Shown: positions 49,987-64,000 of the stretch, piece by piece
Layout of the letters: the number at the start of each line of letters is the position of its first letter
Numbering within the stretch: position 1 is the stretch's first letter
Assembly: GCF_003931855.1 (NCBI RefSeq)
Contig: NZ_CP034248.1
Coordinates: 1,054,001 to 1,118,000 of the forward strand
Reading direction: 5' to 3'
From: Paenibacillus lentus
GTDB taxonomy: Bacteria; Bacillota; Bacilli; Paenibacillales; Paenibacillaceae
Length of the DNA: 64,000 nucleotides
Made by a program: the position numbers and the translations under genes
Notes under the pieces: generated by a model
Seen by the model: the letters and a program-made list of their open reading frames with translations, nothing else
Told to the model about the DNA's origin: nothing
Databases searched by the model: none

Positions 49987-51288
49987 TCATTGCCTTACAA
50001 TATCATGCACGAGAACGGGAGCAACCGCATGATCGGTAATCCGGATATTTGAGTGAATTTTTTCCACAACATCGGCAACCTGATCCCGATTAGCATGAAT
50101 GGTAACTAAAGACTCTCCGGCCTTGATCGAGTCGCCAATCTTCTTGTTCAGCATCAGACCAACCGCAAGGTCGATGCTGGAATCCTTCGTCGCTCTTCCC
50201 GCGCCCAGCAGCATAGCAGCCGTTCCGATCTCATCGGCAACGATTTCGGCGACAATGCCATCCGTCTTAGCAGGTACCTCAATTCGATAAGCGGCTTGCG
50301 GCAGCTTCTCGGGATGATCCACAACAGATGGATCTCCACCTTGACTTGCGATAAACTCCTTAAATTTCTCTAGTGCTTTTCCGTTATGGATAACTTCTTT
50401 CAGCATTTGCTCCGCCTCTTCCAGTGATGTTGCCTTCTTAGCGAGAAAAACCATCTGCCTTCCAAGCGCCAGACAAAGTTCCTCCAGATCCTTGGGTCCC
50501 TTTCCTTGCAGTGTTTCGATGGCTTCCTTGACCTCCAGGGCGTTACCGATCGCGTACCCGAGAGGCTGACTCATATCGGAGATGACAGCCATTGTTTTAC
50601 GGCCGACGTTGTTGCCGATCTGAACCATCGCCTCAGCCAGCTGCTTGGCTTCCTCTGCTGTTTTCATGAATGCTCCAGCCCCTGTCTTCACATCGAGAAC
50701 GATGGCGTCGGAGCCGGCAGCGATTTTCTTGCTCATAATCGAGCTTGCGATGAGCGGAATCGAATTCACTGTTCCAGTGACGTCGCGTAGCGCGTAAAGC
50801 TTCTTGTCGGCTGGCGTCAAATTTCCGGATTGGCCGATAACCGCAATTTTATGACGGTTTACTTGATCCACGAATTGCTCATTGCTGAGCTCTACATGGA
50901 ACCCTTCAATGGCCTCCAGCTTATCAATCGTTCCGCCGGTATGACCTAGACCGCGCCCGGACATTTTGGCAATAGGTATGTCGAGAGCAGCCACGAGCGG
51001 TGCCAGTACGAGGGTCGTCGTATCGCCAACACCGCCAGTGGAATGCTTATCCACTTTTACGCCTTTGATCTCTGACAAATCGATAGTGTCGCCGGAATGC
51101 ACCATCGCCATGGTCAAGTCTGCGCGCTCTCGCTCTGTCATGTCTCGGAAGAAAACCGCCATCGTCCATGCGCTGACTTGATAGTCGGGGATTTGATCCT
51201 TCGTATAGCCCTCGATGATGAAATTGATCTCTTCCGCTGTTAATTCCTTGCCATCGCGCTTCTTCTCAATCAAATCCACCATTCTCAT
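49987..51288 (-). CDS. pdp: Pyrimidine-nucleoside phosphorylase
   Basis: 433 residues, start [15 protein letters not shown] as in B. subtilis Pdp. Splits uridine, thymidine and deoxyuridine with phosphate. Signature [20 protein letters not shown] and phosphate-binding KHSTGGVGD are present. Last gene of the operon; 40 bases after nupC. Confidence 0.96.
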
Positions 51289-51328
51289 CCTCTTATTTTC
51301 CTCGCTTTCGCTTTATAATGATTTTTGA

Positions 51329-52507
51329 TTAGATGAAAATCCCTGCCACCGTAGCGGACAAGACGCTTACCATCGTAGCACCGAATAGCAATCGCAGACC
51401 AAACCGTGCGACAACGTTCCCCTGTTTCTCATGAAGTCCCTTTACCGCTCCGGCAATAATGCCAATCGATGAGAAATTAGCAAACGAGACAAGGAACACC
51501 GATACAATCCCGATACTTCTTGGGGACAATGTTTGGTTACTACTCAGGTCCAGCATGGCTACAAATTCATTGGACACCATCTTGGTCGCCATAATGCTTC
51601 CTGCCACGACCGCGTCATGCCATGGGATGCCCATGACGAATGCAACCGGTGCGAATACATAGCCCAGCATTCCTTGAAACGAAATGCCAAAGATCCCGTT
51701 GAAAATCCCGTTGATCAACGAGATCAGAGCTACGAAACCAATCAGCATTGCGGAGACGATGACCGCTACTTTGAAACCATCCATAATGTACTCGCCGAGC
51801 ATTTCAAAGAACGATTGCTTCTCTTCAGCCTGAACGACCAGGATATCTTCATCTTTATCCACTGTGTAAGGGTTGATGATGGTGGCGATGATAAACCCGC
51901 CGAACAGGTTCAGAACGAGCGCGGTAACGACATACTTAGGGTCAATCATTGTCATGTACGCACCGACAATCGACATTGACACGGTTGACATAGCGGAAGC
52001 GCAAAGCGTATATAGACGGTGCTTCGGCAGCATGCCGATCTGCTTCTTGACGGATATGAACACTTCGGATTGGCCGAGGATCGCAGAGGCGACTGCATTA
52101 TAGGATTCCAGCCTGCCCATTCCGTTAACCTTACTCAAGATTAGCCCGATATACCGAATGATGAAAGGTAGAATTCTCGTATACTGCAGGATGCCAATCA
52201 ACGCGGAGATAAAAACGATTGGCAGTAAAACACTCACGAAGAACACCATTTGTCCCTCGTTTGCGAGACCGCCGAACACAAAATTGATGCCGTCTGCCGC
52301 ATAAGCCAGAAGCATCTCAAACACGGAGGCAAAGCCTCGGATAAGAACCTCTCCTGCGCTCGTGAACAGCAATATATAAGCGAGAACCGTTTGCAGGACG
52401 AGCATGACGATAATTGGCCGATAGCGAATTTTTCGCCGGTTGTTGCTTGCCCAGAAAGTTAAACCAAAAACAACGATCACACCCAAAATGGCATTTAGAA
52501 TATTCAT
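51329..52507 (-). CDS. nupC: Concentrative nucleoside transporter NupC
   Basis: 392 residues from ATG 52507 (MNILNAILG), which overlaps the cdd stop by 3-4 bases; a longer upstream frame runs into cdd. CNT family with about ten membrane segments and motifs [26 protein letters not shown] and [14 protein letters not shown]. Takes up nucleosides with protons or sodium. Confidence 0.94.
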
Positions 52508-52920
52508 TCGATATCCCCTCTGTCGCCTAGCTCCGTCCTGTCTGGGAGTTGAAATGCTCCTGGGAGGAGCTGGGCCATTGTCCATTCCTCGACATCGCCA
52601 TGAAGATTCGTTAAATATATGATTGTGTTGTGATCACTGAATTCAGCCAGCACTTGTCGGCAAGCACCGCAAGGGGATACGGGGCCTTCCGTATCTGCCA
52701 CGATGGCGATCGCGTCAATCTTGGTATTTCCTTCGGATACTGCCTTGAAGACGGCTGTTCTTTCCGCACAATTGGTTAAACCGTATGAAGCATTCTCAAT
52801 GTTGCAGCCCCCATATATCTTCCCACCCGATAGCAGTGCGGCCCCTACCTGAAAGCGGGAATAAGGGCTGTATGCTTGCTTGCGGGACTCAAGCGCTTGT
52901 TGAATCAGTTGCTCTTTCAA
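52504..52920 (-). CDS. cdd: Cytidine deaminase
   Basis: 138 residues. Zinc-site motif NCAERTAVF and [10 protein letters not shown] are intact; NIENASYG binds the substrate. Converts cytidine to uridine for Pdp. Overlaps nupC by 4 bases (ATGA). Second gene of the operon. Confidence 0.96.
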
Positions 52921-52943
52921 CGAGACCCCTCCTATGCTGGGTA

Positions 52944-53609
52944 TTAATACGTAGTCGTTGATTGTTCACCTTCCATGATCTTTACACCTGAGCTAGCTCC
53001 AATTCGGTTAGCGCCTGATTCGATCATTCTGTTCATGTCTTCCAGGCTGCGTACTCCTCCGGATGCTTTCACGCCTACATGTGGACCGACGGTCTTGCGC
53101 ATCAGAGTGACATCTTGCAGCGTAGCGCCCCCAGTCGAGAATCCTGTGGATGTTTTGACGAAGTCCGCCCCCGCTTTAACGGAAAGCTCGCATGCGCGTA
53201 TTTTTTCTTCATCAGTCAAGAGGGACGTTTCAATAATGACTTTCACGATCGCTTGATTGGAAGCCATATCAACGACTGCTTTAATATCCTGCTCTACAAA
53301 CTCGTTATTCCCATCTTTTAACTGACCAATGTTAATAACCATGTCCACTTCAGTGGCACCATTCGCAATGGCGTCCTTCACTTCCATGGCCTTCACTGCC
53401 GATGTTGTTGCGCCTAGCGGAAATCCGATGACGGTACAAACTTTTACCTCTGTCCCCGCGATTTGTTCTGCGGCAAAAGCAACCCAGGTTGGATTAACGC
53501 AAACGGACGCAAACTTGTATTTTTTGGCTTCTTCTGTTAACTTGGCAATTTCTGCCCGGGTAGCATCCGCGCGCAGCAGCGTGTGATCAATCATGCCAGC
53601 TATATTCAT
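52944..53609 (-). CDS. deoC: Deoxyribose-phosphate aldolase
   Basis: 221 residues from ATG 53609 with AAAGGAG upstream. TIM barrel with Schiff-base Lys in [11 protein letters not shown] and second Lys in [10 protein letters not shown]. Splits deoxyribose-5-phosphate to acetaldehyde and glyceraldehyde-3-phosphate. First gene of the operon; order deoC-cdd-nupC-pdp on the minus strand is a complete pyrimidine-nucleoside use unit. Confidence 0.96.
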
Positions 53610-53650
53610 TTCTACAACTCCTTTCTCTTCCACCTCAATAAAAGATGCCC

Positions 53651-53680
53651 TAGTATCTCAATACTATGTGTGATGTGCAA
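53651..53680 (-). promoter_or_regulatory. Promoter and candidate operator of deoC operon
   Basis: On the minus strand TTGCAC (53680-53675) and GATACT (53657-53652) are 17 bases apart. The inverted repeat TAGTAT-CTCA-ATACTA (53651-53666) covers the -10, a natural place for a repressor such as DeoR. Sequence-based proposal only. Confidence 0.5.
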
Positions 53681-53701
53681 AAAGTTATTGCCTGCAGCTG
53701 A

Positions 53702-53725
53702 CGGGGTGAACCGTATCATAAGTAA
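53702..53725 (+). other. Right copy of rlmH 3' end (attachment-like repeat)
   Basis: Encodes RGEPYHK and a stop, as at the end of rlmH, but with different synonymous codons (CGG for CGC, AAG for AAA, TAA for TGA). The 17-base core GGTGAACCGTATCATAA is identical. No further rlmH sequence precedes it: TGA lies directly before. This is what a recombination site brought in by a cassette, or left in the chromosome, would look like. Confidence 0.65.
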
Positions 53726-53790
53726 GCAGAAAGTTGTCGTTAATTGTGTCGGATCGAAGAAGAGCTAAGTATTATGAAGAAGCAAAACTG

Positions 53791-53930
53791 TAGCCTAGAA
53801 AGGGAAGGTCAGCCATCGGAGGGCCTCTCTTCAAAAATTGCCGTTCTTGGCGTGGGACAACCACCATCATTTACAGCAGAGCGAAACCGCAAGCGCTGAC
53901 CTTGGTGTAGAGCCGGATATAGATAGGCCT
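53791..53930 (+). ncRNA. Candidate structured RNA, unknown class
   Basis: Long-range pairing: AAGGTCAGC (53805-53813) with GCTGACCTT (53895-53903), 9 bp perfect, closed further out by GCCTA (53793-53797) with TAGGC (53924-53928). Inside are GAGGGCCTC, GCC-GTTCTT-GGC, GTGG-GACAA-CCAC and AGCG-rich hairpins. It lies between the right repeat of the rlmH island and the 5'-nucleotidase gene, in a 438-base gap; a pyrimidine-rich run follows. It could be a riboswitch, an sRNA or a repeat element; no known class was matched. Confidence 0.4.
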
Positions 53931-54048
53931 TCTTCTCTATTCATTTTTTAACTTTTTTAACATAGATTTGATATATATTACGATTTTTATGAATTTATGC
54001 ATGTTAGAGTATTTCAGTAATAGAAATTGGAGAGGGGTTGTATAATAC

Positions 54049-56172
54049 ATGTCATGGAAACAAAATGTGGGTAAAAGTACTATTCGTATGGCGGCTGCAG
54101 TACTATTATTTTCCCAACTATTGGGGGCAACGGGTTCAGTCTCTGCTGCAAGCAAAGATGTAGAAGTACACTTGATCGGAATCAATGACCTGCACGGTCA
54201 GTTAGATACCACGTCAATAGTTAATGAAAAAAAAGTAGGAACTGCGCCAATTCTTGCAACTTACCTAAAAGAGGCGCGAGCCGAATATGAACACTCCCTA
54301 CTCTTCCATAATGGGGACGCTGTTGGCGCATCTGCTCCAATCTCATCTCTAGATCGTGATGAGCCTACGATGGAGTGGATGAATATGATGGGCTTTGATG
54401 TGGCTTCTTTAGGCAATCATGAATTCGACCAAGGTATCGCTGCATTAAAAGCACAAATCTTTGGCGGCCTTGATCCAAAAGAAGGCAAGGTAACTCATGC
54501 TGGTGCAAAATTTGATTATGTCAATGCCAACGTCATTGAAATCTCCACGGGCAGGACATTGCTTAAGCCCTACGTGATTAAAGAAGTGGGTGGCGTCAAA
54601 ATTGGATTTATCGGATTAGTAACGAAAGCTACACCATCTAAAGTATCTCCATCTGCTACAGCTGGCGTGCGCTTCTTAAGCTCGGAAGAAGAAGTTGAAG
54701 CTGTTAATAAATATGCAAAAGAATTACAAGCTCAAGGTGTAGAAACAATTATCATCTTGGCACATGATCCAGCAACAACGAAAGATGGCGTAACGACTGG
54801 AGAAGCAGCTGACTTAGCAAAGGCTTTGCCGGCAGATTCCCCTGTTGATGTTATCGTTGCCGGTGACAATCATGGTTATGCGAACGGTGAAGTGAATGGA
54901 ATATTGATTGTTCAGGCTTATTCTTATGGTACGGCATTTGAGGATATTAAGCTGATGATTGACCCTGCTACGGGGGATGTAACCGAGAAATCAGCCACAG
55001 TTATAACGACTTTTCAAGAGGGTGTAAAAGAAGACCCTGAATCTTTAGCTATTATTAAAAAATCATTAGACAAGCATCCTGAGCTAACTAAGCCGGTAGG
55101 TACAACAGATGGTTCTGTGACTCGTACAGATGCTTATAATAATGAAGCTCCTCTAGGTAACCTCATTGCAGATGCCATGCGCCAGGCAGACTTTGGTGAT
55201 CACGGAAGCGCTGCTGACTTTGCATTTATGAATCCAGGTGGTATTCGTGCGGATCTGCCACAAGGCGATGTAACCTTTGCGGATCTTGCTAAAATCCAGC
55301 CTTTTGGTAATACCTTAGTGAAATTAGAGCTGACTGGTGAGCAAATTCAAACTTTGCTGGAGCAACAATGGGGAACAAATGCAGACGGTACACCGAACAC
55401 AAAAACATTACAAATCTCTGGTTTAAAATATACTGCTGATTTTAATAAGCCAGTTGCAGAACGTGTTACTAGTCTTAGCTTTGAAGATGGCACACCTATT
55501 GATCCTGCAAAAACATATACGGCTGTAGTTAACAATTTTATGGCAGCAGGTGGAGATAATTATAAAGTGCTAGTGGAGGCTAAATCATCTTTGGCAGGCC
55601 CTATCGATTTGGATGTATTCTACCAGTACATTGTAGATACGTATAAAGGCGGCAGTATTGAGGCTAACATCGAAGGACGTATCACGAACCTAGCTGCATC
55701 TACAGAGCGAACAGATGCCCCGGTAACAACAGAATTCATTTCTCGTGCTGAGTTTGTGAGTGCACTGGTAGACATGTTGAAGCTAAACGAAGTAGCTACA
55801 GCACCTACATTCAAGGATGTTGCTGCTGACGCTACCTATGCTGATGCAATCGCTGAAGCTACTCATGCTGGATTCATTCGAGGCTACGGTGGTAACTTCA
55901 ATCCCGATCATGCTATCACTCGTGAAGAAGCAGCTACGATCCTAGCTAAATTGTTGAACAATCAAGCTTCTGATAAAAATGCGGCTACGATCCTTGCAGA
56001 CTTCGAAGATGGCAAAACCGTTTCGAAATATGCCGTTGAATCCATGGCAATACTGGTTAACAAAGGGATTTTTGGTACAGCAGATAGCAAGTTGCTTCAA
56101 CCGAAACAGGGACTTTCTTCTAACGAAGCAATAGCTTTAATCGAAAAAGCGGTTGCAGCAAAAGCTTCGTAA
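54049..56172 (+). CDS. SLH-anchored 5'-nucleotidase / UDP-sugar hydrolase
   Basis: 707 residues. Signal peptide (cleavage near VSAAS), metallophosphatase domain (GINDLHGQLD, FHNGDAVGAS, SLGNHEFDQG, AHDP, GDNHGY), 5'-nucleotidase C-terminal substrate domain (about 345-545; NPGGIRADLP, PFGNTLVKLELTG), then two SLH-type repeats (about 565-705; FKDVAADATYADAI, RGYGGNFNPDHAITREEAA) that hold it in the S-layer. Releases nucleosides from nucleotides outside the cell, so it could feed the nucleoside operon to its left. Start after GGAGAGGGGTTG. Confidence 0.93.
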   Translation: MSWKQNVGKSTIRMAAAVLLFSQLLGATGSVSAASKDVEVHLIGINDLHGQLDTTSIVNEKKVGTAPILATYLKEARAEYEHSLLFHNGDAVGASAPISSLDRDEPTMEWMNMMGFDVASLGNHEFDQGIAALKAQIFGGLDPKEGKVTHAGAKFDYVNANVIEISTGRTLLKPYVIKEVGGVKIGFIGLVTKATPSKVSPSATAGVRFLSSEEEVEAVNKYAKELQAQGVETIIILAHDPATTKDGVTTGEAADLAKALPADSPVDVIVAGDNHGYANGEVNGILIVQAYSYGTAFEDIKLMIDPATGDVTEKSATVITTFQEGVKEDPESLAIIKKSLDKHPELTKPVGTTDGSVTRTDAYNNEAPLGNLIADAMRQADFGDHGSAADFAFMNPGGIRADLPQGDVTFADLAKIQPFGNTLVKLELTGEQIQTLLEQQWGTNADGTPNTKTLQISGLKYTADFNKPVAERVTSLSFEDGTPIDPAKTYTAVVNNFMAAGGDNYKVLVEAKSSLAGPIDLDVFYQYIVDTYKGGSIEANIEGRITNLAASTERTDAPVTTEFISRAEFVSALVDMLKLNEVATAPTFKDVAADATYADAIAEATHAGFIRGYGGNFNPDHAITREEAATILAKLLNNQASDKNAATILADFEDGKTVSKYAVESMAILVNKGIFGTADSKLLQPKQGLSSNEAIALIEKAVAAKAS

Positions 56173-56433: not shown

Positions 56434-56620
56434 TAATGGTTGCTATTACCGTTAATCTGCTGATTTTTCACTTTTTGAGAATCTAACGGTTGTATATGCT
56501 GCTAATCGAACATTTTTAATAGTATGAGATGAATTAGGCACGAATAACGTGGATTATGATCGTTAGAACACCGAGCGCTCATTTTTGGCGGATTAACAGC
56601 TGTGGCGATCGTTAGAAATT
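56434..56620. other. Degenerate repeat-rich intergenic DNA
   Basis: Short phrases recur in both orientations: TAACGGTTG / ACCGTTAATC, CTGCTGATTTTT / GCTGCTAATCGA, CATTTTT, and GATCGTTAG twice. It looks like decayed copies of an intergenic repeat. No open frame is convincing here. Confidence 0.4.
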
Positions 56621-56718
56621 TGGAAAGGCATAAAGGCTTTCAACGGTAGGTTACTGAAGGTTGCTGATGTATTTGGGAAATTGTTGCCTTAAGAATGGAC
56701 AAATGTGACTCTGATTTT

Positions 56719-56753: not shown

Positions 56754-56887
56754 TACTCGCGAATTATCTTAATATTTTGATCCGAGGCGAATACACATTC
56801 CAGGATTTAGGAGCAAATATAGTAGAGACATAGTATAATATAGGAAAATAGGATGAATAGTAGGCCCCAGGAGGGATAACGGGAAGT

Positions 56888-59800
56888 ATGAGAATCAACC
56901 GAAAAGGTATGGTGAAAACACTCCAAGGTGTGGTTAAAGTACTTAAATTTATTTTTCCTGAGTATCAGCTTGTTGAGTTAGTTCGGGAAAAAGGATTTAT
57001 CGCACCAAAAGAAGAACCAGCTCTAAAGAGGCAGGAACAGCAACCGAAGCAACAATATAATACAGGATCGCGAGCCAGAAGTGCAGATCCGAGCAACTCC
57101 GCGCAGACTTTTATGGACCAGAGCACTTTTTCGTCGACTTTCCGTCCTGGTCAATCTCAGGTTTATACGTCGCAGGGGGTGGGCCAAAGTGATGCGCAGA
57201 GCGTCTTTTCACCCAATCAATTGGATCGACTATTCCGAGAAGTGGAGAAGAACCTTAATAGTCAAGTAATTGGACAGCCGTTCTTCATCAAAGATTTGGT
57301 TGCGGGTTATAAACAGGGATATATGAATGGACGTCAGATTAATAAGCCAAGAAATGTGATTTTGCTGGCTGGAGCTCCCGGAACGGGTAAGAAAACAGCC
57401 TTGGAATGCCTAGTTCGAGAGATGCATGCATATCGGCTAACCTCTAGGCCCCATTTTTCAGAAATTGATTTGCAGCGATATGAGGCCGATGAAATATCCG
57501 GTAATTTTATTATTGATATGGTGGAGGCATTCCAATACTCTGAGGGGACGGTTTTATTTAAGGGGCTAAAAGGGGCTGAGCAGGCTATTATCAGCTTGGT
57601 CGCCAAGCTTGCCGAGGAAGGCAGCTTCCGAACCAAAGAAGGGTTGCGTATAATCGCCGACGATTTTTTCATCATTTTCTATATCGATGAACATGCAGAG
57701 AGAGGAAGTGAATTTGGCCAGGTTCCGTCAGGACTGGCAAATCATCTCCCGATCTCTATCTTGCAAAGCGTCCTTACGGCGGCTATCTCTTCACCGTTAG
57801 AGTGGGGGACGATGCGACAAATTGCAGAGGCCTTACTTGTGAAAGCAGTAGACGATCTGTCAAGGGATATGCAGATAACTATCGTTGTTCATCCTTCCAC
57901 GTATGAGGCGTTAGCTGATATCGCCGCAACAAATCAAACATTTGGCGAGGCAGTGCAGCACTGGATCGATAAGGAGCTTACTGTCGTATTGTCCGGCCTA
58001 CGGGCCCGTAATAAGATTCGTAGCAATGAGCGCGTGCGTATTCGTTTCAAGAACGATTCTTTTTTTGTGGAGTCGAACTCTCTTGAAATTCCGATCAAAG
58101 CACTATCGTTCGTTGGTCAGGAGTCAATTGACGATGTCCTGGAAGAGTTAAATGCGTTAACGGGCCTAGAACCTGTGAAAAAGTTTGTCTATGAGCTCAT
58201 GGAAATGGTTCAGGTGAATAAGCTGAGGGCTAGGGCAGGCGAAGGCTCTGTGCCGATGTCGCTTCATATGGTGTTTACCGGGAACCCCGGAACGGGCAAG
58301 ACGACGGTCGCCCGCTTAATCGGCCGCATTCTGAAGGCGCTAGGATTGCTGCCACAAGGTCAGTTAATCGAAGTGGCGAGGCAGGACCTTGTGGGACAAT
58401 ATGTGGGCTCTACCGCCCCAAAAACGATGGCAAAAGTCAATGAGGCCTTGGGAGGCGTATTGTTTATCGACGAAGCCTATACACTCGCTCGTCATGATAA
58501 CGACACGTACGGCACTGAAGCAATCGACACAATCGTTAAGGCGATGGAGGATCATCGAGATGATTTGGTTGTTGTGCTGGCAGGGTATACCCAGGAGATG
58601 GAGACCTTTTTGCGATCGAATCCAGGTTTGCGTTCAAGATTTCCGTTCATCGTGGAGTTCCCGGACTACAAGGCGGAAGATATGCTGGAAATTATGATTC
58701 AAATCGTGGACAAGAATGGTTTCCGCATAGATTCGGATGCGTATGAGGGTTTGATCGAGCTGTTCGATCAACGGCAAATCCCTGGCCGCAATGACAGCGG
58801 TAACGGCCGACTTGTTCGCAATCTGTTCGAGGAGGCTGTCCGCAAACAAGCTGCTCGGCTTAGAGGGCTAATGTCAGACGCAATTGCAGATACAGATTTG
58901 CAATTATTGATAGGTGCAGATTTCGGAATCGGTGAGAAAGAAGCATTTAACATCGAGAATCAACTGGCTGGGATTGTCGGGTTGGAGAAGGTCAAACTAT
59001 TCGTCCGAACGTTGGAGAAACAGCTTATTGTTGATCGAAGGCGGAAGGAAGCCGGGATTCATGTCGATACTGGGCAGACTCTCAATATGATTTTTTCGGG
59101 TAATCCCGGTACGGGTAAGACGACGATGGCGCGGCTGGTGGCAGAGATGCTCCGATCCATGGGTTATTTGAAAAAAGGACATCTGGTAGAAGTCGGGCGA
59201 TCCGATTTGGTAGCGGAGTACGCCGGCCAGACAGCCAACAAGACCAAGCTGGTTGTCGAATCTGCTCTTGGCGGCGTGCTCTTTATCGATGAAGCCTATT
59301 CGCTTGCGCAGGATGGTGCGCAGGGCGGGGGCTTCGGGAAGGAAGCCATCGATTCGTTGGTTCGTCTTATCGAGATTCATAAAGACAATTTGGTTGTCAT
59401 TTTGGCGGGATATACAGAAGATATGCAGCGGTTTGTTCAGGTCAATCCGGGGCTGTCCTCACGCTTCCCGCTACAGATCGAATTCCCTGACTACACGGCT
59501 GAGGAAATGCAGCAAATTGCCTTGATCATGGCGAAGGCACGAGGGTTTACCTTGGCTTCGGATGTGCCAGGCTTGCTCGAATCCTATTTTAATGAGAAAC
59601 AAATTCCGGGTAGAAAGGACGGAGGCAATGGCCGACTCGTCCGCAATACGCTGGAAGGGGCGATACGCAAGCAAGCGGAGCGATTGGCCGATCACCCTGA
59701 TATTGCGGCCGATCAGTTAAATGAGCTGAATCTGGAGGATTTTGGGCTGTCGACATATGTAGATCTTGCGGCGAAGCGGGCGAATGCGCTTGGAGCGCTT

Positions 59801-60583
59801 GATGCCATTGTCGGTCTGGCCTCTGTTAAGGAATTTGTGAGAAGCCTATCGGCACAAATTGAGGTGGCTAAGCGCCGTCAGGAGATGGGACTGCCCAAGG
59901 CTTCCGCTCAAGCCCTCCATATGGTGTTTAAAGGAAACCCGGGTACCGGAAAAACAACGATTGCCCGTATTTTGGCCCAACGATTTAAAGAACTAGGCGT
60001 GGTCAAGGCCGATACGCTGGTAGAAACTGATCGGTCCGGCCTGGTTGCCGGTTATGTAGGGCAAACTGCGCTCAAGACGAAAGAGGTTATCGAACGCGCT
60101 CTTGGCGGGATCTTGTTTGTGGATGAGGCTTATGCCTTGGCGGAAGGGGATCAATTCGGGCAGGAAGCGATCGATACGCTTGTCAAAGCGATGGATGATT
60201 ACCGGGACAGGCTCATCGTTATATTGGCCGGCTACGACGAAGATATGGAGCGCTTCTTGAACCGTAATGCGGGACTCCGCTCGAGATTTCCCAATATCAT
60301 TACATTCCCCGATTATACAGCCGAGGAAATGCTGCAAATCGCGCATTTGCAAGTGAAATCGCAAGGATATGTGATCGGCCGGGAGGCTGAAGGCACGCTG
60401 CTCTCCATTTTAGAGACCTATGAAGGAGATATGACCGCGGGCAATGGACGGCTCGTGCGAAATTTGGTCGAGAAAGCGATTCGAGCCCATGCCTTACGTA
60501 TGAGCAAGGAAGCTAATGCTACAGTCGAGGAATTATCTACTTTGACACCTGGAGATTTCCAAGAACAGATGGGGGTGATGTGA
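56888..60583 (+). CDS. Four-module AAA+ ATPase: Clp-like plus three CbbX/SpoVK-like
   Basis: 1231 residues, no signal peptide. After an N-terminal linker (about 1-110) comes a ClpB/ClpC D2-like module with Walker A GAPGTGKKTA (Lys168); at the Walker B position it reads TVLFKGLKGAE instead of LFDEIEKAH, so it lacks the acidic pair and is probably not an active ATPase. Three CbbX-like modules follow with Walker A Lys at 471, 744 and 1022 (spacing 273 and 278) and Walker B FIDEAYTLA, FIDEAYSLA, FVDEAYALA. CbbX, SpoVK and EccA are relatives with fewer modules. Start after AGGAGGGATAACGGGAAGT. Stop overlaps the next start by one base. Confidence 0.93.
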   Translation: MRINRKGMVKTLQGVVKVLKFIFPEYQLVELVREKGFIAPKEEPALKRQEQQPKQQYNTGSRARSADPSNSAQTFMDQSTFSSTFRPGQSQVYTSQGVGQSDAQSVFSPNQLDRLFREVEKNLNSQVIGQPFFIKDLVAGYKQGYMNGRQINKPRNVILLAGAPGTGKKTALECLVREMHAYRLTSRPHFSEIDLQRYEADEISGNFIIDMVEAFQYSEGTVLFKGLKGAEQAIISLVAKLAEEGSFRTKEGLRIIADDFFIIFYIDEHAERGSEFGQVPSGLANHLPISILQSVLTAAISSPLEWGTMRQIAEALLVKAVDDLSRDMQITIVVHPSTYEALADIAATNQTFGEAVQHWIDKELTVVLSGLRARNKIRSNERVRIRFKNDSFFVESNSLEIPIKALSFVGQESIDDVLEELNALTGLEPVKKFVYELMEMVQVNKLRARAGEGSVPMSLHMVFTGNPGTGKTTVARLIGRILKALGLLPQGQLIEVARQDLVGQYVGSTAPKTMAKVNEALGGVLFIDEAYTLARHDNDTYGTEAIDTIVKAMEDHRDDLVVVLAGYTQEMETFLRSNPGLRSRFPFIVEFPDYKAEDMLEIMIQIVDKNGFRIDSDAYEGLIELFDQRQIPGRNDSGNGRLVRNLFEEAVRKQAARLRGLMSDAIADTDLQLLIGADFGIGEKEAFNIENQLAGIVGLEKVKLFVRTLEKQLIVDRRRKEAGIHVDTGQTLNMIFSGNPGTGKTTMARLVAEMLRSMGYLKKGHLVEVGRSDLVAEYAGQTANKTKLVVESALGGVLFIDEAYSLAQDGAQGGGFGKEAIDSLVRLIEIHKDNLVVILAGYTEDMQRFVQVNPGLSSRFPLQIEFPDYTAEEMQQIALIMAKARGFTLASDVPGLLESYFNEKQIPGRKDGGNGRLVRNTLEGAIRKQAERLADHPDIAADQLNELNLEDFGLSTYVDLAAKRANALGALDAIVGLASVKEFVRSLSAQIEVAKRRQEMGLPKASAQALHMVFKGNPGTGKTTIARILAQRFKELGVVKADTLVETDRSGLVAGYVGQTALKTKEVIERALGGILFVDEAYALAEGDQFGQEAIDTLVKAMDDYRDRLIVILAGYDEDMERFLNRNAGLRSRFPNIITFPDYTAEEMLQIAHLQVKSQGYVIGREAEGTLLSILETYEGDMTAGNGRLVRNLVEKAIRAHALRMSKEANATVEELSTLTPGDFQEQMGVM

Positions 60584-61038
60584 TGAAAGTCCTGAAGTCG
60601 TTGCTAAAATGGTTGCTCGCGATTATTTTTTATCATCCATTAATGATTTTGGTCACTATCACAATGCTCTTCATGCCTTACATACTATACATTGATATAA
60701 AGAATATTCTGATTAACGAAATTCCGGTAGAAAATGGGAGCATGATGTTGGTAAGCTTTTTCGGATTTTTTATTTATTTGGCTACGAGGAGCCGATTTTT
60801 GGGCATACCCTATCGTAAAATTACGATATTGCTTCCTTTATTGCACATGCTCATCTATACTAGTTTCGCTCTATCGGTAGGAATAACGATTCTAAACAAA
60901 TGGGCTGACGAAGGACTTTATTCCAAGGGATGGGCCATAACGTTTATGCTGCTTGCGATTGTGGCTATTCGATTGTGCATGTCGCTGCTGTACTGGAAGT
61001 ACCCAATCGTTCGGCGAACAAATCAGGATATGAAATAG
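60583..61038 (+). CDS. Multi-pass membrane protein, partner of the AAA+ ATPase
   Basis: 151 residues from ATG 60583, which shares a base with the ATPase stop; GGGGGTGATG is the ribosome site. Four hydrophobic segments (about 7-35, 48-67, 80-107, 113-135) with basic ends. No family recognised. Tight coupling with the ATPase suggests a membrane docking or channel subunit. Confidence 0.85.
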   Translation: MKVLKSLLKWLLAIIFYHPLMILVTITMLFMPYILYIDIKNILINEIPVENGSMMLVSFFGFFIYLATRSRFLGIPYRKITILLPLLHMLIYTSFALSVGITILNKWADEGLYSKGWAITFMLLAIVAIRLCMSLLYWKYPIVRRTNQDMK

Positions 61039-61051
61039 AGGGGGAAGGAAC

Positions 61052-61684
61052 TTGGCGAATTACCGGCAAAACAAGGAAAGATCGAAATCACACGCTACAA
61101 ATCAATATGAGCCTCGACAAACGGATAATGAAGATGTTTCATCAGAGTATACAGAGTCACCCGGCAACGACAAGTCTTCTTCTAGGCCAAAAATAAAGAA
61201 TAAGCATCGATTTTGGATCGGGATTACGGTGCTGATCACGCTCGGGATGGGTATATACTTTCAGGGTTCATCTATCCACAGTATAAGAGACGTTCAGTCG
61301 GATGGGATCGGTAAGGGGATGAAGGCTGGTGTCCAGCTAGCTGCGGTAGATGATTCGGCGGGGCTCGAAGCTAGGGATTTCGAGATTGAGATGAAGAAAA
61401 ATACGACGACAAGCCGTATGCTAATTTGGGATTTCGCTGCCGAAGATGGCGATGTCGTTACGGTGAAGGTGGACGGAAATATTCTGCAAACGAATATAAA
61501 TATTATGCATAGCCCGGTGGCAATTGATATTCCAATTCCAAGTGTGGTCGAAATTATAGGTGTCAAGGATGGTGGAGGCGGGATTACATATGGGGTTAAG
61601 TTCCCCGGGGCCGTTCATAATAGTGCTTATTTCAATGCGGCACCAGTTGGCTCCTCTAACGTCTACACGATAACCGTACAGTAA
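61052..61684 (+). CDS. Single-pass protein with C-terminal beta domain
   Basis: 210 residues, TTG start with GAGGGGGAAGGAAC eight bases upstream. Charged polar N-terminus (about 50 residues), one membrane helix (about 51-69; FWIGITVLITLGMGIYF), then an extracellular domain, about 115-210, of repeated beta strands (RMLIWDFAAEDGDVVTVKVD, GVKDGGGGITYGVKFPG, SSNVYTITVQ). That domain resembles beta-sandwich modules of surface proteins that read DGD-x-V, but no named family is claimed. Last gene of the three-gene unit. Confidence 0.82.
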   Translation: MANYRQNKERSKSHATNQYEPRQTDNEDVSSEYTESPGNDKSSSRPKIKNKHRFWIGITVLITLGMGIYFQGSSIHSIRDVQSDGIGKGMKAGVQLAAVDDSAGLEARDFEIEMKKNTTTSRMLIWDFAAEDGDVVTVKVDGNILQTNINIMHSPVAIDIPIPSVVEIIGVKDGGGGITYGVKFPGAVHNSAYFNAAPVGSSNVYTITVQ

Positions 61685-61873: not shown

Positions 61874-62722
61874 CTATTTTCGGATTTCTAACGATCTCGT
61901 GAAAATTTCCAAATTCTCTGTTATCAACGGGGTATTTTTAAATCCGGTATAGGCTATTATGTCGTTAATATCCCCGACAAACTCAGTCAAGCTGGCAGTA
62001 GAGGCATTCCCAAATCGGTTCTCTCCGATGATGTCCCAGACCTGTTCGGCTGCTTCCTCTTTGTATTCCTGCACCCAGTCATTACGAGTGGATGCGTTAG
62101 TAGCGAATGTGCTCAAAATGCTGCCCCAGTCTTTCCCGTTCACAATAGCCTCTTGTAGCTTGCTCAGCGTTTCCGGCTCGAATCTCTGCATCATCTCGGT
62201 CAAATTGATATAATCCTCCGGCGCCCCAATCGGCCTTTGCGGCGGGGTTATGTAACGGATCTCATTCGTGTCAGGATCTATGGTTCTGGTTTGGGAGATG
62301 GCTCCGATTTGACGGATCGTATTCATAAATTCAGCCGCATCGTCATCATTCATGTAGTTGTCCGCGATATACTTAGCTTGAGTGAGTCCCAATTCTAGTA
62401 ACACTGCTCTTTCCTCTTCCCCAGTGATGTCTGTTATAAAATTAGACTGAATGATGCCATAAACCGCTTCCTCCACCTCAGAGGGTTGATCTTTAAGAAG
62501 GCGATTCAGCGAATCATTGATTTGAACGGTGCCAAAGTATTTAGCCGAATGATGCACAACATCGGATGCTGCCAGTTGTCTGGCAGCCGGGCTGATTTCC
62601 AATGAATCGGTGTCATGCGACAATTCGGGTATCGTGCCTGTGATTAAGGCAGGTTTATCTGCTTGTTTTTTCGAAATTGTGTATAAATTTATGTCTTGTT
62701 GGGTCGAGCCGTAAATTTTCAT
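61874..62722 (-). CDS. Hypothetical protein, 282 residues
   Basis: Start chosen at ATG 62722 (MKIYGSTQ), with GGAAAGG about 12 bases upstream; ATG 62743 has no ribosome site. No signal or membrane helix. Short motif LEISPAARQL, similar in style to flagellar/anti-sigma peptides, and helical acidic remainder (EEAVYGIIQSNF, DNYMNDDDAAEFMNTI). No family recognised. Confidence 0.8.
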   Translation of the reverse strand: MKIYGSTQQDINLYTISKKQADKPALITGTIPELSHDTDSLEISPAARQLAASDVVHHSAKYFGTVQINDSLNRLLKDQPSEVEEAVYGIIQSNFITDITGEEERAVLLELGLTQAKYIADNYMNDDDAAEFMNTIRQIGAISQTRTIDPDTNEIRYITPPQRPIGAPEDYINLTEMMQRFEPETLSKLQEAIVNGKDWGSILSTFATNASTRNDWVQEYKEEAAEQVWDIIGENRFGNASTASLTEFVGDINDIIAYTGFKNTPLITENLEIFTRSLEIRK

Positions 62723-62819
62723 AATTAACCAAACCTTTCCCATATAATCAATTTAAAAATTACCTTTCATCCATATTATCGGCATATCATCCATATTTTT
62801 AATATTAATGACAAAAAAA

Positions 62820-62866: not shown

Positions 62867-64000
62867 TCAACCCCCGTAAATACTGTAAGCAAAATGATAC
62901 ACAACATCCGTATCGTTCGCGCTAGGGCGATCCGTTACCATCGCTAACACGCCACAAATGTCAAAATAGTGAGTGAAGCTTATGGCACCAGGCAGATATT
63001 GGCTAACGCTTCCGGTTGAGGGAGGCAGGGATAACGTAATGGAGAATTGGCCGCTGCTGTTTGTCCATGCCTTTCCGCTCCGAAATTTGTTATTACTGCC
63101 TTCGCTCCAATACGGATTTTCCCAAATGACTTCGACTTCTGCATTGGCTACGGCATAGTTATCCGAAGTTGCAGCGACGCCAGTCACCGTAAAGCTATTT
63201 CCCGTAATCCGGTAGTAGCGTCCGTATGCATAGCTAGGGTAATCATTTGGACCGCCGTTGGAGTTATAGCCTGTTATGACAATTTTATCCGCTCTTAATA
63301 CCGGCTGCAGATGGAGTGAATAGTTAATATCCGAATAGGTGTTTGTTGTATAGACCCGTAGATAATAAGTGCCTGTTCCTAGTGATACATTGCCATTTAC
63401 GGAGGGGATTAATGCCATCCGATTATTACTTAGTGCGCCGTACATTTCCGCTTTGTAGCCATTGCTTATAGACGCTTGGTCCAAATTAATACGCATCGCG
63501 TCATAATTTCTGCTTTCAGGAACCGTAATTTTATACCAATCCTGATCCACCTCCGAATTAATGGAGCGGCTCACAAGAGTAGAGCCTCCTGTTGCTACTG
63601 TGAAAGGATAGGCATGAAGTGCATTTTCGTCCGTCTCGAATGCATCATAGGTTGAGCTTGTCGAGACAGTTAAATAGAATGGTTCGTTAATGCTGGCTCC
63701 AACTGCGCCATAGACTTCAATTAAGTAGGCTTTGGAACCGACAGTATCGTTTTTCGTGCCGACATTTTCGGACAAGGTCCCGGGTCCATTTCCATAGTTA
63801 TTCAGATAAGTTCCATAAATCGAGTAATCAATTGGATTCGGGTTCAAGTCCCCGGTGGACATATCAAATTCATAGAGATAAAGATCGTAATCAAGCTGCG
63901 CTGAGGCAGGACTATCCATTTGAACCTGTAGAATGCTCCCCGGTTGTACATAAATTGGGTATAAATAAGCGGACGTACCTTCCTGCTGAATGTAGCCCGT
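62867..64000 (-). CDS. Surface or secreted beta-domain protein (PPC-like), 5' part beyond window
   Basis: The frame is open to the window edge on the minus strand: 27 further codons precede the first ATG (63919) and read like more of the same domain (YIQQEGTSAYLYPIYVQPG). Visible domains: a PPC-like beta-sandwich (LQVQMDSP ... DYDLYLYEFD), a second (QDWYKITVPESRNYDAMRIN, GTYYLRVYTT), and an Ig-like beta domain with NSSGQFSITLSLP at the C-terminus. Such domains occur in extracellular proteins. The N-terminal half is unseen, so the enzyme part, if any, is unknown. Confidence 0.8.
   Translation of the reverse strand, partial: TGYIQQEGTSAYLYPIYVQPGSILQVQMDSPASAQLDYDLYLYEFDMSTGDLNPNPIDYSIYGTYLNNYGNGPGTLSENVGTKNDTVGSKAYLIEVYGAVGASINEPFYLTVSTSSTYDAFETDENALHAYPFTVATGGSTLVSRSINSEVDQDWYKITVPESRNYDAMRINLDQASISNGYKAEMYGALSNNRMALIPSVNGNVSLGTGTYYLRVYTTNTYSDINYSLHLQPVLRADKIVITGYNSNGGPNDYPSYAYGRYYRITGNSFTVTGVAATSDNYAVANAEVEVIWENPYWSEGSNNKFRSGKAWTNSSGQFSITLSLPPSTGSVSQYLPGAISFTHYFDICGVLAMVTDRPSANDTDVVYHFAYSIYGG

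Follow-up and report, generated by a model that had tools for sequence, protein, structure and literature searches.

Proteins of the CbbX/SpoVK/EccA clade of AAA+ ATPases share Walker A and Walker B motifs, a sensor-1 GY, an asparagine upstream of the arginine finger, a second arginine (sensor 2) and an AAA_lid_6 domain, and the characterised members are dedicated chaperones (PMC10659427). Here, we analysed a three-gene operon of Paenibacillus lentus that lies at positions 56,888 to 61,684 of a stretch of 64,000 nucleotides (contig NZ_CP034248.1, positions 1,054,001 to 1,118,000, forward strand), which as a whole is referred to as the window. The operon encodes a four-module AAA+ protein (P1) and two membrane proteins (P2 and P3). 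Judged by its sequence, P1 appears to be a variant of the CbbX-clade chaperones, and the unit is found in some spore-forming bacteria. We estimate a probability of roughly one half that P1, P2 and P3 constitute a membrane-docked AAA+ machine for protein remodelling, equipped with a sensing or handling domain on the outside.

The literature that we found covers SpoVK, CbbX, EccA, variants of the type VII secretion system (T7SS) and the tandem SpoVK ATPases of CoCoNuT systems. SpoVK of Bacillus subtilis belongs to the same AAA+ clade as modules 2 to 4 of P1 and is a dedicated chaperone at a membrane surface (PMC10659427). It has a single module, preceded by a short N-terminal domain, and no membrane-gene partners, whereas P1 joins three such modules to a pseudo-Clp D2 module. 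CbbX, the activase of red-type Rubisco, is the closest solved relative of P1 (PDB 3syk, 3zuh; E=7e-60); it has the same motifs as modules 2 to 4 and, by analogy, they probably share its hexameric tail-pulling chemistry. In contrast to the P1 unit, CbbX is a soluble single module with Rubisco as client, and it has neither a pseudo-module nor membrane proteins. EccA of the ESX/type VII secretion systems (PDB 9lur; E=4e-50 against P1) likewise links a CbbX-clade AAA+ module to a membrane machine, but it combines a TPR region with a single module, and its gene is accompanied by WXG100 and EccC genes; none of this is found at the P1 operon. As in P1, the N-terminal module is inactive in the tandem SpoVK ATPases of CoCoNuT, and Hsp70-like proteins occur in the wider system (PMC11090510). 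Different from P1, these ATPases have two modules and a C-terminal LRR or beta-barrel, are encoded in nuclease operons and lack P2 and P3. A preliminary description of the locus had stated that no system of this make-up was known, and we found no description of the P1 architecture or of the operon in the literature searched, which is not proof of novelty.

The three genes are arranged as follows:

56888..60583, plus strand: P1, four-module AAA+ protein of 1231 amino acids (open reading frame, Pfam/NCBIfam, homologue alignment)
ATG at 60583, stop at 61038, plus strand: P2, four-helix membrane protein of no known family (hydrophobicity; kept in 15 further loci)
TTG at 61052..61684, plus strand: P3, single-pass membrane protein with a C-terminal beta domain (AlphaFold2, AF2; kept in 15 further loci)

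The open reading frames agree with the preliminary description: the ATG of P2 shares one base with the P1 stop, and 13 bases separate the P2 stop from the TTG start of P3. The closest relatives of P1 are found in P. woosongensis and P. bouchesdurhonensis (95-96% identity), and an alignment with 15 homologues spans 53-96% identity. The order P1-P2-P3 is kept down to 31-54% identity in Paenibacillus, Cohnella, Lysinibacillus, Neobacillus and Bacillus; because it is conserved across these five genera, the three-gene unit is not a chance arrangement.

One pseudo-ATPase and three motor modules in P1

In P1, a Walker A motif begins at each of residues 162, 465, 738 and 1016. The near-constant spacing of about 275 residues proposed earlier holds for modules 2 to 4 (273 and 278 residues), but not for module 1, which precedes module 2 by 303 residues. 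The modules were delimited as follows:

57209..58123, plus strand: module 1, Clp/HSP100 D2-type pseudo-ATPase (profile search, AF2, Foldseek, VIA)
57548..57580 (P1 residues 221-231), plus strand: degenerate Walker B of module 1, TVLFKGLKGAE (alignment to the ClpC Walker B strand)
58112..58936, plus strand: module 2, intact CbbX/SpoVK-type AAA+ (TIGR02881 306 bits, invariant catalytic residues)
58937..59758, plus strand: module 3, intact CbbX/SpoVK-type AAA+, missing in the homologue of locus L100 (TIGR02881 287 bits, tree)
59759..60580, plus strand: module 4, intact CbbX/SpoVK-type AAA+ (TIGR02881 301 bits, invariant catalytic residues)

Modules 2 to 4 are 49-51% identical to each other. AAA (PF00004, E=4e-58) and AAA_lid_6 (PF17866) were each detected in three stretches of P1, and the motifs GNPGTGKT, F(I/V)DEAY, AGY, N(P/A)GLxSRF and GNGRxVRN are kept in all three modules of all 16 aligned homologues, with single conservative exceptions. 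The pore-loop tyrosines (Tyr505, Tyr778 and Tyr1056) and Arg584 of module 2 are invariant in the same set. The defining features of the CbbX/SpoVK/EccA clade are present in all three modules, which are predicted to be complete and active CbbX-type motors, in line with the three intact modules of the preliminary description.

Assignment to a named family is a different matter. The SpoVK equivalog model (TIGR02881) scores best for modules 2 to 4, but each module stays below its cut-off of 422.95 bits, which the whole chain exceeds only by summing the modules (878 bits). For EccA, the NCBIfam model reaches 683 bits over the whole chain and 226-248 bits per module, with a cut-off of 467 bits, and for the CbbX equivalog (TIGR02880) the three modules score 254, 220 and 217 bits against a 459-bit cut-off. 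Since the whole chain passes the cut-offs of all three models where single modules do not, these equivalog names are summation artefacts, and the labels 'SpoVK' and 'EccA' from whole-chain NCBIfam matches were rejected. A Rubisco gene recurring in the operon neighbourhoods was not found in 27 loci.

Module 1 gave little signal in a single-sequence Pfam scan (Torsin at E about 1e-3). A profile of 16 homologues matched the D2 domains of ClpC, Hsp104 and ClpB in hmmsearch, with ClpC reaching E=1.1e-11 over positions 5-289 of 304. In a Foldseek search with the AF2 model of module 1, which has a mean predicted local distance difference test score (pLDDT) of 90, the second nucleotide-binding domain (NBD2) of ClpB and ClpC ranked first at E about 1e-15 (ClpB E=1.7e-15). 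VIA-align superimposed the model on ClpA (1r6b) with a Z of 21.7 and a root mean square deviation of 4.5 over 273 residues, and all 50 matches listed were Clp/HSP100 proteins. ClpB_D2-small was matched, weakly, in 8 of 16 family members. Module 1 is predicted to have the Clp/HSP100 D2 fold, including the D2-small subdomain.

The sequence TVLFKGLKGAE falls on the would-be Walker B strand of the AF2 model (model residues 113-118). In most Paenibacillus, the sequence of this strand is TVLFxGxK, in Bacillus and Lysinibacillus it is TVCFTGxE; the acidic pair of Walker B is absent in every homologue read, and no alternative Walker B was found in the module 1 fold. In the alignment to ClpC, the sensor-1 asparagine (TSN), the arginine-finger region and sensor 2 (GAR) are likewise missing, so that none of the residues required for catalytic competence of a D2 domain, from the Walker B pair to the sensor-2 arginine, is in place. 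The Walker A motif GxxGTGK, on the other hand, is invariant in the close family, and its lysine is replaced by arginine (GTGR) in the divergent loci L075 and L105. Because the Walker B pair, the sensors and the arginine finger are lost while Walker A is kept, module 1 is read, on profile and model evidence, as a pseudo-ATPase of HSP100 D2 origin, as the preliminary description had suspected. It may still bind nucleotide but should not hydrolyse ATP. The likeness to the D2 domains of ClpC, ClpB and Hsp104 is thus one of fold over the whole length of the module; in contrast to these domains, it has no Walker B and, by alignment, no arginine finger, sensors or pore loop, and, unlike HSP100 proteins, P1 contains no D1 and has no ClpP link.

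In a module tree, each of modules 2, 3 and 4 clusters separately with its counterparts throughout the Bacillota family, which makes the triplication ancestral there. The number of active CbbX modules nevertheless varies between one, two and three among homologues. In one genome (G517, L100:6313-9192), a P1 variant of 959 amino acids lacks the middle active module while P2 and P3 are intact. On the gut contig MT837216.1 (L105:3870-7135), a secreted or membrane beta protein precedes a 684-amino-acid chain of pseudo-Clp and one CbbX module, which groups with module 2. A Bacteroidota protein with TPR and three CbbX modules (L027:6713-10633) has modules that group together and were multiplied independently. 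As the number of active modules varies from 1 to 3, a strict three-plus-three ring is unlikely to be a conserved design. The idea of a built-in half of a pseudo-hexamer that had been suggested earlier, with three active modules and one inert module, is thereby weakened in its literal form.

MT837216 is listed as a phage, but its release-factor-3-like and radical-SAM-like genes look chromosomal, and a phage origin was not used. Single-module SpoVK/CbbX-like ATPases that are phage-borne were seen at L106:3980-4942 and in gp596 of Bacillus phage G; in Brevibacillus phage Emery, a sigma factor gene precedes gp95.

Membrane partners, distribution and surroundings

P2 has the four hydrophobic segments noted earlier; it showed no Pfam or PADLOC match and no NCBIfam match near cut-off. 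P3 has one N-terminal hydrophobic segment and a second, weak one inside the beta domain, and it matched nothing in Pfam or NCBIfam at cut-off, in PADLOC or among PDB sequences. By these searches, the membrane pair is of no known family. Two further elements of the P1-P2-P3 unit were delimited:

61364..61681, plus strand: P3 beta domain with the signature WDxxxEDxD...PxPS...GVKDGGGGI (alignment, hhalign)
56933..57007, plus strand: conserved N-terminal peptide of P1, VVKVLKFIFPEYQLVELVREKGFIA, ahead of a variable linker; candidate docking peptide (alignment)

AF2 predicts the P3 domain as a nine-strand sandwich, with pLDDT mostly at 87-96 over residues 111-210, which fits the single-pass protein with a beta domain of the preliminary description; its proposed position on the extracytoplasmic side is probable. 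A PE(x)Q-like core of the N-terminal peptide is present in every P1 read that is accompanied by P2 and P3, and the peptide is absent from L075 and L105, which both lack this pair. Its second half is altered in L074, which has lost P2 and P3, but also in one genus (G158/G230) that keeps them. The peptide is thus a candidate for docking P1 on P2.

The coupling of the three genes was followed in samples of 395 genomes of the order and, for P3, 399 genomes of the class. Among the genomes of the order, 20 contain P3 and 22 gave a match to module 1, one of which is judged spurious (G311; E=3e-4, a frame of 190 amino acids without CbbX). In 19 of the 21 ATPase-bearing genomes, the P3 gene shares contig and strand with the ATPase gene and is no more than about 4 kb away, and the P2 gene lies between P1 and P3 in each locus of these that was read; one additional genome (G004) contains a P3 fragment alone. 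The other two genuinely depart from this pattern: in G251, P1 is directly followed by an IS3-like transposase pair, and in G287 the membrane partners are different ones. Homologues that lack the two membrane genes are thus uncommon within the close family. Of the 399 class genomes, 8 contain P3, and besides the window's own genome, four of the other seven contain the full operon. Of the remaining three, G513 has a P2-P3 fusion without a nearby ATPase, G590 retains a remnant of P3, and the copy in G725 is broken. P2 and P3 are also fused in the G158/G230 genus (L077:8743-11611, L078:6495-9356), where a chain of 346-350 amino acids occurs in two tandem copies with a further P3. Clustering of the neighbours in 27 loci retrieved, besides P1-P3, only generic superfamilies, such as response regulators, kinases, short-chain dehydrogenases and ABC proteins. 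Co-occurrence, the P2-P3 fusion and the lack of other conserved genes nearby lead us to conclude from these genomic patterns that the membrane genes are genuine partners of P1, as had been proposed, and that the unit is self-contained. The operon is patchily distributed, with about 5% of order genomes and 2% of class genomes. A phylum-wide census with a broadened module-1 profile was discarded, because ordinary proteins of ClpC/ClpE/ClpB size dominated its matches (228 of 249 genomes).

The P3 signature also recurs outside this family, as WDxxxEDxDxVxI...PxP...GVxDGGGGI in a protein of an alphaproteobacterial Methylorubrum plasmid (NZ_CP088249.1, L103:5764-7346; hhalign 97.9%). Its gene overlaps by one base that of a Clp-D2 ATPase with a transmembrane (TM) anchor and an intact Walker B, and the pair lies near MobQ and TraG genes. 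In a genome of another Bacillota class (G960, L110:5352-7931, minus strand), a P3-like protein (hhalign 98.4%), an NPCBM-like single-pass protein and a fusion of four TM segments with CbbX (4TM-CbbX) are encoded in a row. Both distant pairs are located near TraG/VirD4 genes. The P3 domain was not detected in viral contigs, nor the G960 proteins in plasmid searches. In both cases, the signature shared with P3 stands beside a membrane-anchored AAA+ protein; different from the operon, a single active AAA+ module is fused to the anchor, whereas P1 is a separate four-module chain. By sequence comparison, these are independent associations of the P3 beta domain with membrane AAA+ motors.

A divergent branch was found in two genomes, G287 (L075:1749-9818) and G1043 (L135). 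There, a four-gene operon encodes a short Hsp70 (PF00012, E=2e-139), a J-domain-TPR-TM protein, a divergent P1 with N-terminal TPRs (TPR-pseudoClp-3xCbbX) and a TPR-2TM protein, so that the membrane pair P2/P3 is replaced. This operon is possibly a dedicated membrane chaperone system.

Upstream of P1, one short element is conserved:

56829..56843, plus strand: promoter-like element CATAGTATAATATAG, includes TATAAT (kept upstream of P1 in close relatives)

The flanking intergenic DNA is not conserved among these relatives. Further upstream, the intergenic region 56440-56640 contains short imperfect repeats around GATCGTTAGAA, and positions 49987-56172 are occupied by an ordinary cluster for nucleoside use (read from sequence as pyrimidine phosphorylase, nucleoside transporter, cytidine deaminase and deoxyribose-phosphate aldolase) and a 5'-nucleotidase with S-layer domains. 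The adjoining genes on the other side (61874-62743 and 62867-64000, both minus strand) have no significant Pfam or NCBIfam match.

Proposed mechanism and competing explanations

The view of P1-P2-P3 as a docked remodelling machine is based on the identities of the modules, the genetic coupling, the P2-P3 fusion, the recurrence of P3, the Hsp70 context and the tracking of the N-terminal peptide with P2 and P3. P1 would dock with this peptide on the cytoplasmic face of a P2/P3 complex. The inert D2 module would serve as a scaffold or regulatory platform, i.e., for binding of substrate or partner or as a ring cap, rather than as a motor. The CbbX modules, either of one chain or of several, would form hexameric rings, and these rings would pull or remodel a dedicated client by an exposed tail, in analogy to CbbX acting on Rubisco and to the proposed action of SpoVK on MurG. 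The P3 domain would sense or hold something outside, either the cell wall or a client protein, and P2 would transmit this to the other side of the membrane. An envelope or membrane protein is the probable client. The preliminary description had left the choice between remodelling and export; by analogy to the clade, remodelling is the function best supported and the membrane linkage is backed by the gene coupling, whereas export is not.

Several observations weigh against this view. No conserved neighbour gene that would name a client, and no client, was found in the 27 loci. The Hsp70 context is confined to two species of one genus with syntenic loci, which count as one event, and to the divergent branch without P2 and P3. 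The comparison of the P3 fold with the PDB returned generic Ig-like, CnaB and Calx-beta sandwiches alone (best Z 5.7), though a specific relative is possible. Finally, no homology was detectable between P2 and the four TM segments in the G960 fusion (hhalign probability 2%).

We propose with less confidence, and as somewhat more likely wrong than right, that the beta-domain/membrane pair serves as a portable transmembrane module, which various bacteria have coupled to AAA+ motors, namely CbbX arrays of three or two modules with a pseudo-HSP100 cap, 4TM-CbbX and TM-ClpD2. In that case, these proteins would represent a new class of AAA+ machines, which span the membrane and connect a signal or substrate on the outside with protein remodelling in the cytosol.

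Alternatively, the operon could encode a sporulation-specific envelope chaperone, i.e., a membrane-tethered counterpart of SpoVK whose target at the forespore membrane would be an enzyme of cell-wall synthesis; we regard this as unlikely. The best scores of modules 2 to 4 are indeed obtained with the SpoVK model, and activation of MurG at the surface of the forespore has been proposed for SpoVK (PMC10659427). The genome, however, also encodes a separate SpoVK-type protein with a single module (gene at 3401 kb), which is 44% identical to one P1 module. Spo0A is present in all 14 carriers tested, but also in 129 of 151 class genomes, and a restriction to spore formers is therefore uninformative. 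The operon occurs in only about 5% of the sampled order, in which most spore formers lack it. CATAnnnT is the consensus of a sporulation-type -10 region. The -10-like sequence CATAGTATAATATAG could belong to such a promoter, but it fits a sigma-A -10 equally well.

Slightly less probable still is a system for conflicts with phages or mobile elements, in which the AAA+ array would be a sensor/effector switch coupled to membrane-perturbing P2 and P3. The patchy distribution without a conserved chromosomal neighbourhood, the conjugation genes (TraG/VirD4, MobQ) next to the distant P3-AAA pairs and the CoCoNuT operons, in which tandem SpoVK ATPases have an inactive first domain (PMC11090510), are compatible with this idea, as is a weak PADLOC similarity of P1 to IetA. 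The NCBIfam match to IetA (NF042959), on the other hand, amounts to 90 bits for the whole chain, with a cut-off of 510 bits, and P2 and P3 have no PADLOC match. No nuclease, defence gene or protease (the IetS partner of IetA) recurs in the 27 loci, and the upstream neighbours in the window are ordinary nucleoside metabolism genes.

A T7SS-related protein-export machine, in which P1 would be an ATPase like EccA and P2/P3 would provide the channel or its accessories, is very improbable, because its support from the whole-chain EccA score, the CbbX-clade nature of EccA and the presence of membrane partners is outweighed by the summation of that score over three modules, by the failure to find an EccA TPR region in P1, by the lack of WXG100 in 8 of 14 carriers and its distant position in the P. 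lentus genome (about 5.03 Mb, versus 1.11 Mb for the operon, on a 5.29-Mb chromosome), by the absence of a linked T7SS gene that recurs across the 27 loci, and by the thin basis that four small helices plus one provide for a channel.

If P1-P2-P3 is indeed a membrane-docked remodelling machine, it would be, so far as the searched literature shows, the first member of the CbbX clade that is wired across a membrane in this way. To a clade whose characterised members are dedicated chaperones with narrow targets, the unit would add up to three active modules in one chain, an inert HSP100 module and an inherited transmembrane partner with a domain on the outside. Because the modules can be distinguished within one chain, P1 would provide a natural test bed for the number of active sites that an AAA+ ring needs and for the role of a dead module. 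As the genes are few, self-contained and present in culturable Paenibacillus, this idea is directly testable.

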